Shown here: piece after piece, positions 20,597 to 23,237 of the stretch | Position numbering within the stretch: position 1 is the stretch's first letter | Layout of the letters: each line of letters opens with the position of its first letter | Origin: Oscillospiraceae bacterium | Lineage (GTDB): Bacteria; Bacillota; Clostridia; Oscillospirales; Oscillospiraceae | Length of the DNA: 41,758 bases | Reading direction: 5' to 3' | Assembly: GCA_017624715.1 (NCBI GenBank) | Contig: JAGAMN010000011.1 | Location: forward strand, 1 to 41,758 | The notes under the pieces: model-generated | What the model was told of the DNA's origin: nothing | The model's database searches: none | The model's input: the letters and a program-made list of their open reading frames with translations, nothing else | Program-made: the position numbers and the translations under genes

Positions 20597-21637
20597 TTAT
20601 AGGTCAAAATGTGTCTGTCCGTCAAAAGGAATATGCAAATGCTGGTAAGCCAGAGCGGTGACGCAGCGACCCCGGGGTGTCCGCGTCAGGAAGCCAAGCT
20701 GCATTAGGTAAGGTTCGTACACATCTTCCAAAGTAACCGCCTCTTCGCCGATGGTGGCGGCCAAAGTTTCCAGACCCACAGGTCCGCCGCTGTAGTTACG
20801 AATGATGGCGGTAAGCATCCGGCGGTCGATGGTATCCAAACCCAATTCGTCCACCTCCAGGCGACTTAAAGCCAGGTCGGCAGCTTCCTTGGTGATGGTG
20901 CCGTCGCCCATGATCTGGGCAAAATCCCGGACCCGGCGCAGGAACCGGTTGGCGATTCGGGGGGTACCGCGACTCCGGGAGGCGATCTCCATTGCGCCCT
21001 TGGGGTCGATATCCATACCCAAAATAGTGGCGCTTCTCGTTACGATTCGGGCCAATTCCTCCGCGGTGTACAGCTCCAGTCGCAGGGATACGCCGAAGCG
21101 ATCCCGCAAGGGGGCGGAAAGCTGACCGGCCCGGGTGGTAGCGCCTACCAGGGTGAATTTGGGCAGATCCAGCCGAATGGAGTTGGCGCTTGGACCCTTG
21201 CCCACGATGATATCGATGGCAAAATCTTCCATGGCCGGGTAGAGAATTTCCTCGACTACCCGGTTTAGGCGATGAATCTCGTCGATAAAGAGAATATCGC
21301 CGGGGTTTAAGTTGGTCAGTAGCGCCGCCAGATCGCCGGGCTTTTCAATGGCCGGGCCGGAAGTTATGCGGATATTGACGCCCATCTCATTGGCAATAAC
21401 GCCTGCCAGGGTGGTTTTGCCCAGGCCGGGAGGACCATAGAGCAGGGTGTGATCCAGGGGCTCATTTCTCCGACGGGCGGCTTCAATGTACACAGAAAGA
21501 TTTCCCTTGGCCTTTTCCTGGCCGGTGTAATCTGTCAGCAGTTTGGGACGCAGACCGATCTCACCGGCATCCTGGGGGGCAAAAGTGGGGGAAATGATGG
21601 GGGAAGTATCAAATTCCTGATTAAATTCCAAGCTCAT
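20597..21637 (-). CDS. ruvB: Holliday junction branch migration ATPase RuvB
   Basis: A 346-residue RuvB, full length for the family. Walker A is [12 protein letters not shown] at about residues 67-78, Walker B is [10 protein letters not shown] at about 117, sensor 1 is VGATTRAG at about 166, and the arginine/sensor-2 region is [14 protein letters not shown] at about 223. The winged-helix C-terminus ends [15 protein letters not shown]. It drives branch migration with RuvA during recombinational repair. The ribosome binding site (TAGGAG) is intact, but 21-44 bases upstream of the start lies a REP palindrome. An inserted segment separates the gene from ruvA, so its expression depends on read-through or a new promoter. 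Confidence 0.97.
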
Positions 21638-21657
21638 ATTAAAACTCCTAACAAAAT

Positions 21658-21681
21658 GTAGGGGCGAGCATTGCTCGTCCG
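21658..21681 (+). repeat. REP palindrome, left copy
   Basis: It starts with the tetranucleotide GTAG followed by the imperfect palindrome GGGGCGAGCATTGCTCGTCC. The 24 bases are the exact reverse complement of 22608-22631. GTAG plus palindrome is the known target format of RAYT enzymes. Confidence 0.85.
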
Positions 21682-21706
21682 TGCCAACTGGGGAATACGC
21701 ACTAAG

Positions 21707-22192
21707 TTACCCGATATAAAAACAATCATCTGTCCATTTGGCAGGATTATTTGCAATATATTCCCAGATTTTGGAATAATCCCTTTCCCCGCGGATCACA
21801 TGGTCGTGGAATAGTTTTTGCCACACACTATGCCCAATATATTTTGTGACAACACCCTTTAGTTGTTGCACTACAGTCGATATTGTAGGGACGACCATTG
21901 GTCGTCCGTATTCATCTGTATGAATTTGCAACAGCAAATGTACATGATTTGGCATTATAACATACTGATCGACAGAAATTGCGGGGTAATGAACGGATAT
22001 ATTACAGATTGCTTCCTCTACAATTGATCCATATTTCGATAATAGAGGCTTTTGCTGAGCATTGATGCTGGTTTCGGTATTTGCCCAGAATATGCATTTG
22101 TGGTCTTTGGTGCAAATGGTAATGAAATACGCACCGGGGGCGCTGTAATCAAAGTGAGAAAGTCTGGCTGGTTTGCGTCTGGGAAAATCCAT
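21707..22192 (-). CDS. REP-associated tyrosine transposase (RAYT, IS200/Y1-like)
   Basis: A 161-residue Y1/HUH nuclease of the TnpA-REP type. The N-terminus RRKPARLSHFDYSAPGAYF and then ITICT is diagnostic for RAYTs. The HUH motif is MPNHVHLLL at about residues 79-87. The catalytic Tyr is probably in GERDYSKIWEYI near residue 140, followed by NNPAKW. These single-strand nucleases recognise and cut GTAG-palindrome REP sequences and are thought to spread them. The gene is intact. Its ribosome binding site (AAGGAG) overlaps the end of the upstream gene, so the two are coupled. Unusually, a third REP palindrome lies within this coding sequence (21885-21908). Confidence 0.9.
   Translation of the reverse strand: MDFPRRKPARLSHFDYSAPGAYFITICTKDHKCIFWANTETSINAQQKPLLSKYGSIVEEAICNISVHYPAISVDQYVIMPNHVHLLLQIHTDEYGRPMVVPTISTVVQQLKGVVTKYIGHSVWQKLFHDHVIRGERDYSKIWEYIANNPAKWTDDCFYIG
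21885..21908 (+). repeat. REP palindrome inside the RAYT gene
   Basis: GTAG followed by GGACGACCATTGGTCGTCC, a perfect 9-bp stem with a one-base centre. It has the same length and format as the two border REPs, with compensating stem changes (CGAGCA to CGACCA, TGCTCG to TGGTCG). It encodes the GRPMVVPT part of the transposase. Confidence 0.8.
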
Positions 22193-22196
22193 GTAT

Positions 22197-22556
22197 TTAC
22201 TCCTTAAATACTATGTTGTTTTCCGTACACCACTGCCGTGCGATCTCGAAAACGGTCTTTTCATAAAATCTCCACCAACTGTTCCACTCATTGCACCTGT
22301 GCATTAATTCTTCAAAGCAAAATGTACTTTCGTAAAATTTTGACAATGCTCCTTTGCCCATAAACTGCTGAAGATATTGTTGCTGGATATATTCCTCATC
22401 AACCTGAGGGAGTGGAATATAGCGAATATAGGGGAGATTCTGGTGTTTTAGAGAATTGACAGCGCAAATTTTGTATGTTTTTCTGTCAAGATAATAATAA
22501 ACAGGATGGTTTGTGTATTGCCGATGGGCAAATAAATCCTGTAGTGAGATATGCAT
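22197..22556 (-). CDS. UPF0158-like hypothetical protein in the REP segment
   Basis: A 119-residue protein resembling the UPF0158 family. The features are an early YYYLDRKTYKI (the family's 'dL..G.v' region), IRYIPLPQVDEEY, a QQFMGKGALSKF segment and a C-terminal Trp/Tyr helix (NSWWRFYEKTVFEIARQWC). No catalytic motif or membrane segment is visible, and function is unknown. The start has GAGGAGGAT upstream, and the stop precedes the RAYT start by 4 bases. The pair therefore behaves as a two-gene unit within the REP borders. Confidence 0.65.
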   Translation of the reverse strand: MHISLQDLFAHRQYTNHPVYYYLDRKTYKICAVNSLKHQNLPYIRYIPLPQVDEEYIQQQYLQQFMGKGALSKFYESTFCFEELMHRCNEWNSWWRFYEKTVFEIARQWCTENNIVFKE

Positions 22557-22607
22557 AAGTTATCCTCCTCGTAGGATAGAGCACAGCTACGCTAATCAAA
22601 CCACTGG

Positions 22608-22631
22608 CGGACGAGCAATGCTCGCCCCTAC
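22608..22631 (-). repeat. REP palindrome, right copy
   Basis: Exact inverted copy of 21658-21681, with its GTAG toward ruvA. It begins 6 bases past the ruvA stop codon. Confidence 0.85.
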
Positions 22632-22637
22632 AAGATA

Positions 22638-23237
22638 TCAGCCTTTCATCACCATGGCGCGCAGGGCGTGGCGAACCATTTCCTCGGTGGTAGCCTTGGG
22701 ATCGACGCCCTTCAGGGCAGTGTGGATCTCAGCAGGGGAGTAGCCCAGCTCCTGCAGAGCTGCTTGGGCCAGGGCGGCATTGCCCTGATTTAGCGGAACA
22801 ACCGGTGCAGCGCCGGCAGAGAAGTCCAGTTCTACAGAACCACCGCCGATCTTATCCTTCAGCTCCAGGATGATCCGCTGGGCGATCTTCTTGCCGATGC
22901 CCTGGGCGGCGGTCAGAAGCTTTTCGTCCCCGGTCATTACCGCCAGAGTAAAGTTCTGGGGGCCTGCGGACAGAATGGAAATGGCGGCCTTGGGGCCCAC
23001 ACCGGTGACGGAGGTCAGCAGTTCATAGCAACGCTGTTCCTCCCGGGAAATGAAGCCGTAAAGATCAAAAGCGTCCTCACGGATAGACTCGGTGATATAG
23101 AGTTTTGCCGGCTGATTCAGTTTCAGCTGGGCAGCGGTATAGGCGGTTACCCGGCAGCCGTAGCCTACGCCGCCGCAGTCGATGACCGCAAGGCCGGGTT
23201 CCAAAACCGCCACAGGACCGGAAACGTAATATAGCAT
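22638..23237 (-). CDS. ruvA: Holliday junction branch migration protein RuvA
   Basis: A 199-residue RuvA. It has the N-terminal OB-fold (MLYYVSGPVAVLEPGLAVID, GVGYGCRVT), two helix-hairpin-helix motifs (LTSVTGVGPKAAISILS at about residues 71-87 and TAAQGIGKKIAQRIILELKD at about 108-127), and the C-terminal RuvB-binding domain (AALQELGYSPAEIHTALKGV). It holds the four-way junction as a tetramer and recruits RuvB. It starts 47 bases after the ruvC stop, in the usual clostridial order ruvC-ruvA-ruvB, and is full length. Confidence 0.97.
   Translation of the reverse strand: MLYYVSGPVAVLEPGLAVIDCGGVGYGCRVTAYTAAQLKLNQPAKLYITESIREDAFDLYGFISREEQRCYELLTSVTGVGPKAAISILSAGPQNFTLAVMTGDEKLLTAAQGIGKKIAQRIILELKDKIGGGSVELDFSAGAAPVVPLNQGNAALAQAALQELGYSPAEIHTALKGVDPKATTEEMVRHALRAMVMKG

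Follow-up and report, generated by a model that had tools for sequence, protein, structure and literature searches.

A RAYT with in-frame and bordering REPs, and an apparent passenger gene, between ruvA and ruvB of an Oscillospiraceae genome

RAYTs have been described as domesticated transposases, single-copy and vertically inherited, by which REP populations are maintained (PMC8049555), and characterised TnpAREPs cut single-stranded REPs beside GTAG hairpins, with a motif strictness that varies by group (PMC8266576). TnpAREP subclass 2.4 is marked by in-frame REPs between the HUH and Tyr motifs and by the motif set NH[IFV]H, WQ and YIxNNP (Quentin et al. 2018, PMC6006769). In Pseudomonas and Stenotrophomonas, a class change of the REPs that flank syntenic RAYTs has been termed an ‘orthoswitch’ (Nunvar et al. 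2013, PMC3686654), and intragenic GTAG/CGTC REPs and RPEs that are translated in frame have been reported, many of them within genes for DNA replication and repair (Di Nocera et al. 2013, PMC3733652). These accounts are limited to the accessible portions of the papers cited.

The locus analysed here lies in a stretch of 41,758 nucleotides (the window) from a draft genome of an Oscillospiraceae bacterium (G000; 2.27 Mb in 69 contigs, 86% complete), in which ruvC, ruvA, an insert and ruvB follow one another in this order, all on the minus strand. The features of the insert and its two neighbours are the following.

22638..23237, minus strand: ruvA, the upstream neighbour (ORF call; a match in 115 of the 136 genus genomes)
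22608..22632, minus strand: left border REP, its GTAG tip facing ruvA, a perfect inverted copy of the right border
22197..22556, minus strand: orfX, a UPF0158-like, apparent passenger gene of 119 aa with its own Shine-Dalgarno, GAGGAGG
21707..22192, minus strand: RAYT / TnpAREP of 161 aa, with the motifs NHVH, WQ and YIANNP
21886..21910, plus strand: internal REP in the RAYT frame, translated as GRPMVVPT and placed between HUH and Tyr
21657..21681, plus strand: right border REP, 25 nt 3' of the RAYT stop
20597..21637, minus strand: ruvB, the downstream neighbour, with a Shine-Dalgarno, AGGAG, between the right REP and the ruvB start

An earlier note on this DNA had described a two-gene unit bounded by perfect 24-bp inverted GTAG repeats and lying 6 bases after ruvA and 20 before ruvB. 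The borders are indeed perfect copies of one another, with outward-facing GTAG tips, and are one base longer than was stated (25 nt, at 21657-21681 and 22608-22632); the unit adjoins both genes, at a measured 5 nt from the ruvA stop and 19 nt from the ruvB start. The two open reading frames, a RAYT of 161 aa and orfX of 119 aa, were confirmed and are separated by 4 nt. They do not share a ribosome binding site, as had been proposed: orfX (GAGGAGG) and the RAYT (AAGGAG) each have a Shine-Dalgarno of their own, that of the RAYT sitting within the final orfX codons, 7 nt 5' of the ATG. The insert is AT-rich, with a GC content of 41.4% as compared with 59.3% for ruvA and 56.7% for ruvB, and one of 818 segments of 900 bp along the contig, which may be the insert itself, had a GC content at or below the 39.7% of positions 21700-22599.

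When searched against NCBIfam, the window RAYT scored 63.7 bits (E=1.6e-17) with NF047646, for which the curated cut-off is 80, and it also matched the ‘TnpArep’ of PDB 4ER8 (E=3.8e-4). In a 30-sequence RAYT alignment both His residues, the Q, the Tyr and the NP were invariant and the W nearly so. Judged by its sequence, the window RAYT is a TnpAREP relative. It has the NH[IFV]H, WQ and YIxNNP motifs and a REP in frame between HUH and Tyr, features by which it can be described as subclass 2.4-like. The several near-identical copies at different sites that define an IS200/IS605-type element were not seen, the 86% complete genome holding one RAYT match; nor were other copies with the same borders, for which the earlier note had suggested a search, found in this genome, whether of the RAYT, of orfX or of the bordered unit. 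Among 72,556 plasmid and 50,697 phage records, RAYT relatives were found in 4 and 1, respectively, all at less than 60% identity, and in viral contigs there were three, one of which, on an 18-kb IMG/VR contig (L367), is 53% identical to the window RAYT.

Across the genus, some RAYT match was present in 78 of 136 genomes. We examined 111 of the 115 genomes with a ruvA match (in the other 4, ruvA lies at or near a contig edge), which gave 113 ruvA loci (two each in G339 and G403) and, after setting aside 6 loci without ruvB, 107 readable junctions. A RAYT was found at 14 of these 107. In keeping with the earlier note, empty sites occur in close relatives: in the two nearest (RuvA 98% and 95%) the genes are 9 nt apart, which means that we are not dealing with an old arrangement fixed in all relatives. 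The gap between ruvA and ruvB measured 20 nt or less at 32 junctions, 21-200 nt at 50 and more at the remaining 25. That between ruvC and ruvA is variable as well (over 200 nt in 20 of 102), and no RAYT was detected there (102 gaps measured; those above 60 nt searched). The start of the RAYT lies -8 to +9 nt from the ruvA stop in 10 of the 14 carriers, and in the window, G030, G033 and G363 other DNA separates the two. The slot is also filled by other small co-oriented genes, which from a reading of their translations comprise zinc ribbons, four-helix proteins, membrane proteins and small lipoproteins. Zinc-ribbon-like genes occur in it with or without a RAYT (G030, L173/L209; G017, L003/L049; G010, L051; G339, L302), and the one in G345 (L194) appears to hold in-frame stops. 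Four-helix-bundle-like genes were seen in G359, G371 and G375 (L249, L301, L204), those of G359 and G375 being flanked by short AT-rich repeats.

To place these RAYTs, 106 of 142 matched RAYT stretches in the genus were analysed (hand count), the other 36 being second pieces of a place already counted, fragments and seven long low-scoring matches; a tree of 103 RAYTs was then built by a quick search with SH-aLRT support only, leaving out three places shorter than 130 aa. In this tree the 12 intact RAYTs from ruvA-ruvB fall into two pure clades, separated by well-supported branches, and the ruvA-ruvB label required 2 changes as compared with 11.6 when shuffled (0 of 500 shuffles as low). Clade I, to which the window RAYT belongs, comprises G000, G356, G017, G336, G363 and G030, with the decayed copies of G347 and G003 added on the basis of their 65% identity to the window RAYT, and clade II comprises G338, G394, G378, G352, G345 and G033. 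Among the 103 tree rows, the clade of the window RAYT was found at ruvA-ruvB and nowhere else. Two genomes, G008 and G361 (L004, L178), share DNA that is 100% identical over 2,992 nt; as one contig binned into both genomes is more likely than a recent RAYT transfer, the pair was not counted as evidence of transfer, and both copies were kept in the 103-row tree.

The border repeat is not a product of chance; its core recurs at 7 places in the genome at up to 3 mismatches, 3 of them within the insert, and a reversed-pattern control gave 0. The third repeat of the insert, which the earlier note had overlooked, is the internal REP at 21886-21910. It is identical to the border REP at 22 of 25 nt, with two of the three differences compensating in the stem, and in an alignment of the RAYT with 4ER8 a 7-residue gap spans TDEYGRP, where the peptide encoded by this REP begins. 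Genome-wide typing of REPs, performed with one pattern at up to 3 mismatches, found no other copy of the internal GACC type in the window genome, where the GAGC-type borders do recur, and found the types of the internal copies elsewhere in the genomes of G008 (GATC) and of G017 and G030 (GACC and GAGC). The window genome also holds a second REP family (the GTAGGGCGGGGG type, in inverted pairs; L027, L028), and no additional RAYT to go with it was found in the 86% complete assembly. The border REP also precedes ruvB in G356, where it follows the RAYT directly, and in G363 and G030 (one change in the latter), where a further small gene lies between RAYT and REP. All three genomes are without orfX here, so this REP is not peculiar to the two-gene unit. 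No left-type REP was found between ruvA and the RAYT in G356, G336, G017, G363 or G030.

In-frame REPs turned out to be common in RAYT genes. The best 80 of 498 named loci together with the 106 genus places yielded 179 ORFs that are distinct in their last 240 nt (stricter duplicate removal had reduced the set from 181, and the counts were repeated). In this set at least one GTAGGG-type palindrome was present in 128 of 179 ORFs, as compared with 2 of 3,620 codon-shuffled ORFs and 29 of 774 stop-to-stop frames of at least 160 codons in the flanks (named loci, the window and L003). An inverted in-frame pair brackets the HUH motif in 90 of the same 179, with one member mostly about 40-45 residues before HUH and the other about 10-20 residues after it. 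Pair members differ by a mean of 1.06 edits within a gene versus 7.99 between genes (0 of 5,000 permutations as low), and are identical in 37 of 90 within-gene versus 99 of 8,010 between-gene comparisons. Internal REPs likewise resemble the REPs flanking them at the same locus (1.78 versus 8.01 edits, 74 loci; 0 of 5,000 permutations as low), with identity in 31 of 74 same-locus versus 107 of 5,402 other comparisons. The reading frame of the REP varies at both in-frame places, which suggests repeated insertion or repair. The matched in-frame pair around HUH is apparently new: a literature search of titles and abstract starts found nothing on such pairs, and supplementary Figure S10 of PMC6006769 may picture one. 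The window RAYT is without the first in-frame REP, having the residues NTETSINAQQKP at that place, and the window has a REP upstream of orfX in place of this copy. In the ruvA-ruvB RAYT of G003 (L043/L012), the segment between the two internal-REP places is gone, HUH included, as if the deletion had been promoted by the inverted REP pair.

The second gene of the insert had been called UPF0158-like. The similarity holds up, since the C-terminal 62 aa of orfX match a PF03682 member from a relative (pairwise BLASTP, E=6e-6), with 24% identity when the two are aligned end to end; membership of the family does not, as no Pfam or NCBIfam match was obtained at E≤10. PHROG and PADLOC likewise assigned no family to orfX, and a PF03682 profile search of the whole genome G000 gave no match. 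We describe orfX as UPF0158-like on the strength of this resemblance and do not call it a family member. At E≤0.001 its only match in the 136 genus genomes was the window itself, with none in the 135 congeners (next best E 0.00119), and 400 genomes of the bacterial family searched at E≤0.01 gave three weak matches besides itself (best E 0.00106), which were not taken as homologues. It was absent from the plasmids, phages and viral contigs searched, and a phage or plasmid origin was rejected on this ground together with the lack of a PHROG or PADLOC family. The best hits of a PDB search, to antibody chains (E 0.15), were taken as chance.

The earlier note had proposed that UPF0158 genes might accompany RAYTs, and took a lack of linkage as telling against its reading. 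PF03682 was found in 1 of 136 genus genomes (G331, itself without a RAYT match) and in 2 of 295 genomes across the order. At 186 RAYT loci, made up of the best 80 of 498 named relatives and the 106 genus places (with some contigs in both sets), orfX was detected at one, the window itself, and a PF03682 member at none (tblastn, E≤1e-3; flanks of about 1-1.5 kb in the genus and up to 4 kb at the named loci). No linkage was thus detected at the other 185 loci, in a search of limited sensitivity: very divergent orfX relatives could be missed, because the single PF03682 query did not detect orfX itself. On present evidence we reject orfX as a RAYT partner, and the gene looks like an unrelated passenger at one locus.

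Taken together, these data are probably best explained by a resident REPtron, accompanied by a captured passenger (orfX), in an operon slot that has been filled repeatedly by two RAYT lineages and by small genes. The REPtron would consist of one RAYT (a TnpAREP, subclass 2.4-like) plus its cognate REPs, and orfX would be an unrelated passenger, placed like the left REP between ruvA and the RAYT. Translation of the RAYT would be coupled, on the transcript of the ruv operon, and, by analogy with characterised TnpAREPs, we infer that the enzyme has the same REP-cutting activity, its HUH and Tyr residues nicking single-stranded GTAG-hairpin REPs. The enzyme would copy or rearrange these small REPs and not its own gene, and the internal and flanking REPs would be its substrates, changing in step with it. 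Movement of the gene itself is not easily accounted for by REP cutting, because in the 10 carriers in which the RAYT abuts ruvA the ORF is without a ruvA-side REP. The RAYT and orfX may have reached this genome by a rare acquisition at the junction, or may have been retained while sister species lost both. Some observations sit less comfortably with the resident reading. The empty nearest junctions and the AT-rich insert are also compatible with the whole unit having been inserted recently; the two border REPs match perfectly, as expected of element ends; and the internal REP, of whose type no other copy was found in this genome, differs from the borders by two stem bases. Nor do the data positively show vertical residence, because in neither clade were RAYT distances correlated with those of ruvAB (Mantel Spearman -0.03 and -0.34; 6-7 members, hence low power).

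As for how the slot came to be occupied, we tentatively consider that the RAYTs could be old vertical residents, present here in the ancestor of the genus and since lost by most species, often cleanly. The most similar clade I pair (85%, over the open part of G347) is that of two host sisters, G356 and G347, decayed copies persist in G003 and G347, and neither clade contains near-identical RAYTs in distant hosts (58-85% aa identity, in hosts with 74-85% ruvAB DNA identity). Against this, carriers are scattered on the ruvA+ruvB tree of 107 and are not clearly more clustered than shuffled labels: the 8 clade I carriers require 7 changes on the host tree, compared with 7.8 when shuffled (86 of 500 as low), and the 6 clade II carriers require 6, a value reached by 500 of 500 shuffles. 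Two lineages at one site would moreover need a double ancestral occupant or a replacement, and no carrier with both was seen.

An exchange of slot content between species, by homologous recombination through the conserved ruvA and ruvB, is a doubtful explanation of this pattern. It would account for a supported trio in which the same downstream zinc-ribbon gene lies after a clade I RAYT (G017), after a clade II RAYT (G345) and, at the second ruvA locus of G339, after none; and a few single windows favour a carrier over a sister, as in G363, where the last 120 nt of ruvA are 85% identical to a carrier versus 73% to the named sister. However, in identity windows near the junction carriers were on average not more alike than non-carriers, and in G017 the last 120 nt of ruvA share 97% identity with the sister that has no RAYT, as compared with 69% for the best carrier of the same clade. 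With no mean signal in the windows, single ones of which vary, flank exchange was rejected as the cause of the scattered distribution.

The genus has further recurrent RAYT homes, with 12 RAYTs between rnhA and remB and 11 between prfA and tsaE (gene names from a reading of translations). It seems unlikely that genus RAYTs integrate preferentially just 3' of ruvA, rnhA and prfA. In favour of such site-directed arrival, these three junctions hold 37 of the 106 analysed RAYT places, and on the RAYT tree the rnhA home requires 10 changes, at least 4 of them forced by well-supported branches, with at least 2 for ruvA and 1 for prfA. On the other side, no target motif or duplication was identified, in several carriers what is present is an ORF that has little flank and REPs inside, an arrangement that REP cutting does not explain, and a persistence bias, with RAYTs surviving where they are harmless, gives the same picture. 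Among the best 80 of 498 named loci, a ruvA or ruvB match was found near 0, a prfA match near 1 and an rnhA match near 1 (L093), so that with the genus's own proteins as queries the ruvA home has so far not been seen outside the genus. Further RAYTs were noted 3' of dnaN and 3' of gyrB, each time in two congeners (L326/L337 and L009/L343; names again from translations), so several homes follow DNA-replication genes. A literature search of titles and abstract starts, with most subscription papers outside its scope, found no publication on RAYT homes in ruvAB. A broader proposal, which we likewise think improbable, is that the RAYTs of this lineage are site-homing and self-seeding, combining repeated arrival 3' of ruvA, rnhA and prfA with an in-frame REP pair of their own around HUH, such that enzyme and substrate are inherited together and the palindrome dictates paired amino-acid changes.

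The mobile two-gene transposon of the earlier note, in which the RAYT would cut the border REPs and move itself with orfX as cargo, is very unlikely: although the perfect inverted border repeats, the empty junctions of the nearest relatives and the low GC of the insert speak for it, the unit is single-copy in the genome, the RAYT clade is confined to ruvA-ruvB in the 103-row tree, the border REP occurs without orfX in G356, G363 and G030, no orfX or UPF0158 match lies near other RAYTs (186 loci, limited sensitivity), no DNA match to the unit was found in plasmids, searches of plasmids, phages and viral contigs did not find orfX, and RAYTs are reported, in the accessible part of PMC8049555, not to copy themselves.

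On the preferred reading, in which the REPtron is resident and its passenger captured, the UPF0158-like gene appears to be a passenger at a single locus and not a partner of the RAYT, which corrects the earlier note. The genus itself offers a natural experiment, with 136 genomes, three homes that RAYTs occupy recurrently, one junction used by two lineages, empty near relatives and concerted in-gene REP pairs, in which the origin of REP specificity and the arrival and loss of RAYTs become directly testable.

Set beside the described systems, as far as the accessible portions of the papers go, the locus resembles subclass 2.4 REPtrons (PMC6006769) in its motif set, in the GTAG REPs beside the gene and in the in-frame REP between HUH and Tyr. 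It is unlike them in its clostridial host, its REP-bounded partner gene and its slot within ruvAB, and its relatives, unlike subclass 2.4 as described there, commonly add a second in-frame REP before HUH that is matched to the first. orfX has the end-to-end pattern of one UPF0158 (PF03682) member, but is shorter (119 aa) and without a Pfam match. As in the intragenic REPs and RPEs of PMC3733652, the internal REP of the window is translated in frame; here, however, the repeat lies within a transposase gene, and ruvA and ruvB are uninterrupted. Finally, the shared-site RAYTs of the genus recall the orthoswitch orthogroups (PMC3686654), in which REPs switch class together, with the difference that here the REPs in the coding sequence change too and that different RAYT lineages occupy one site in a patchy set of hosts.
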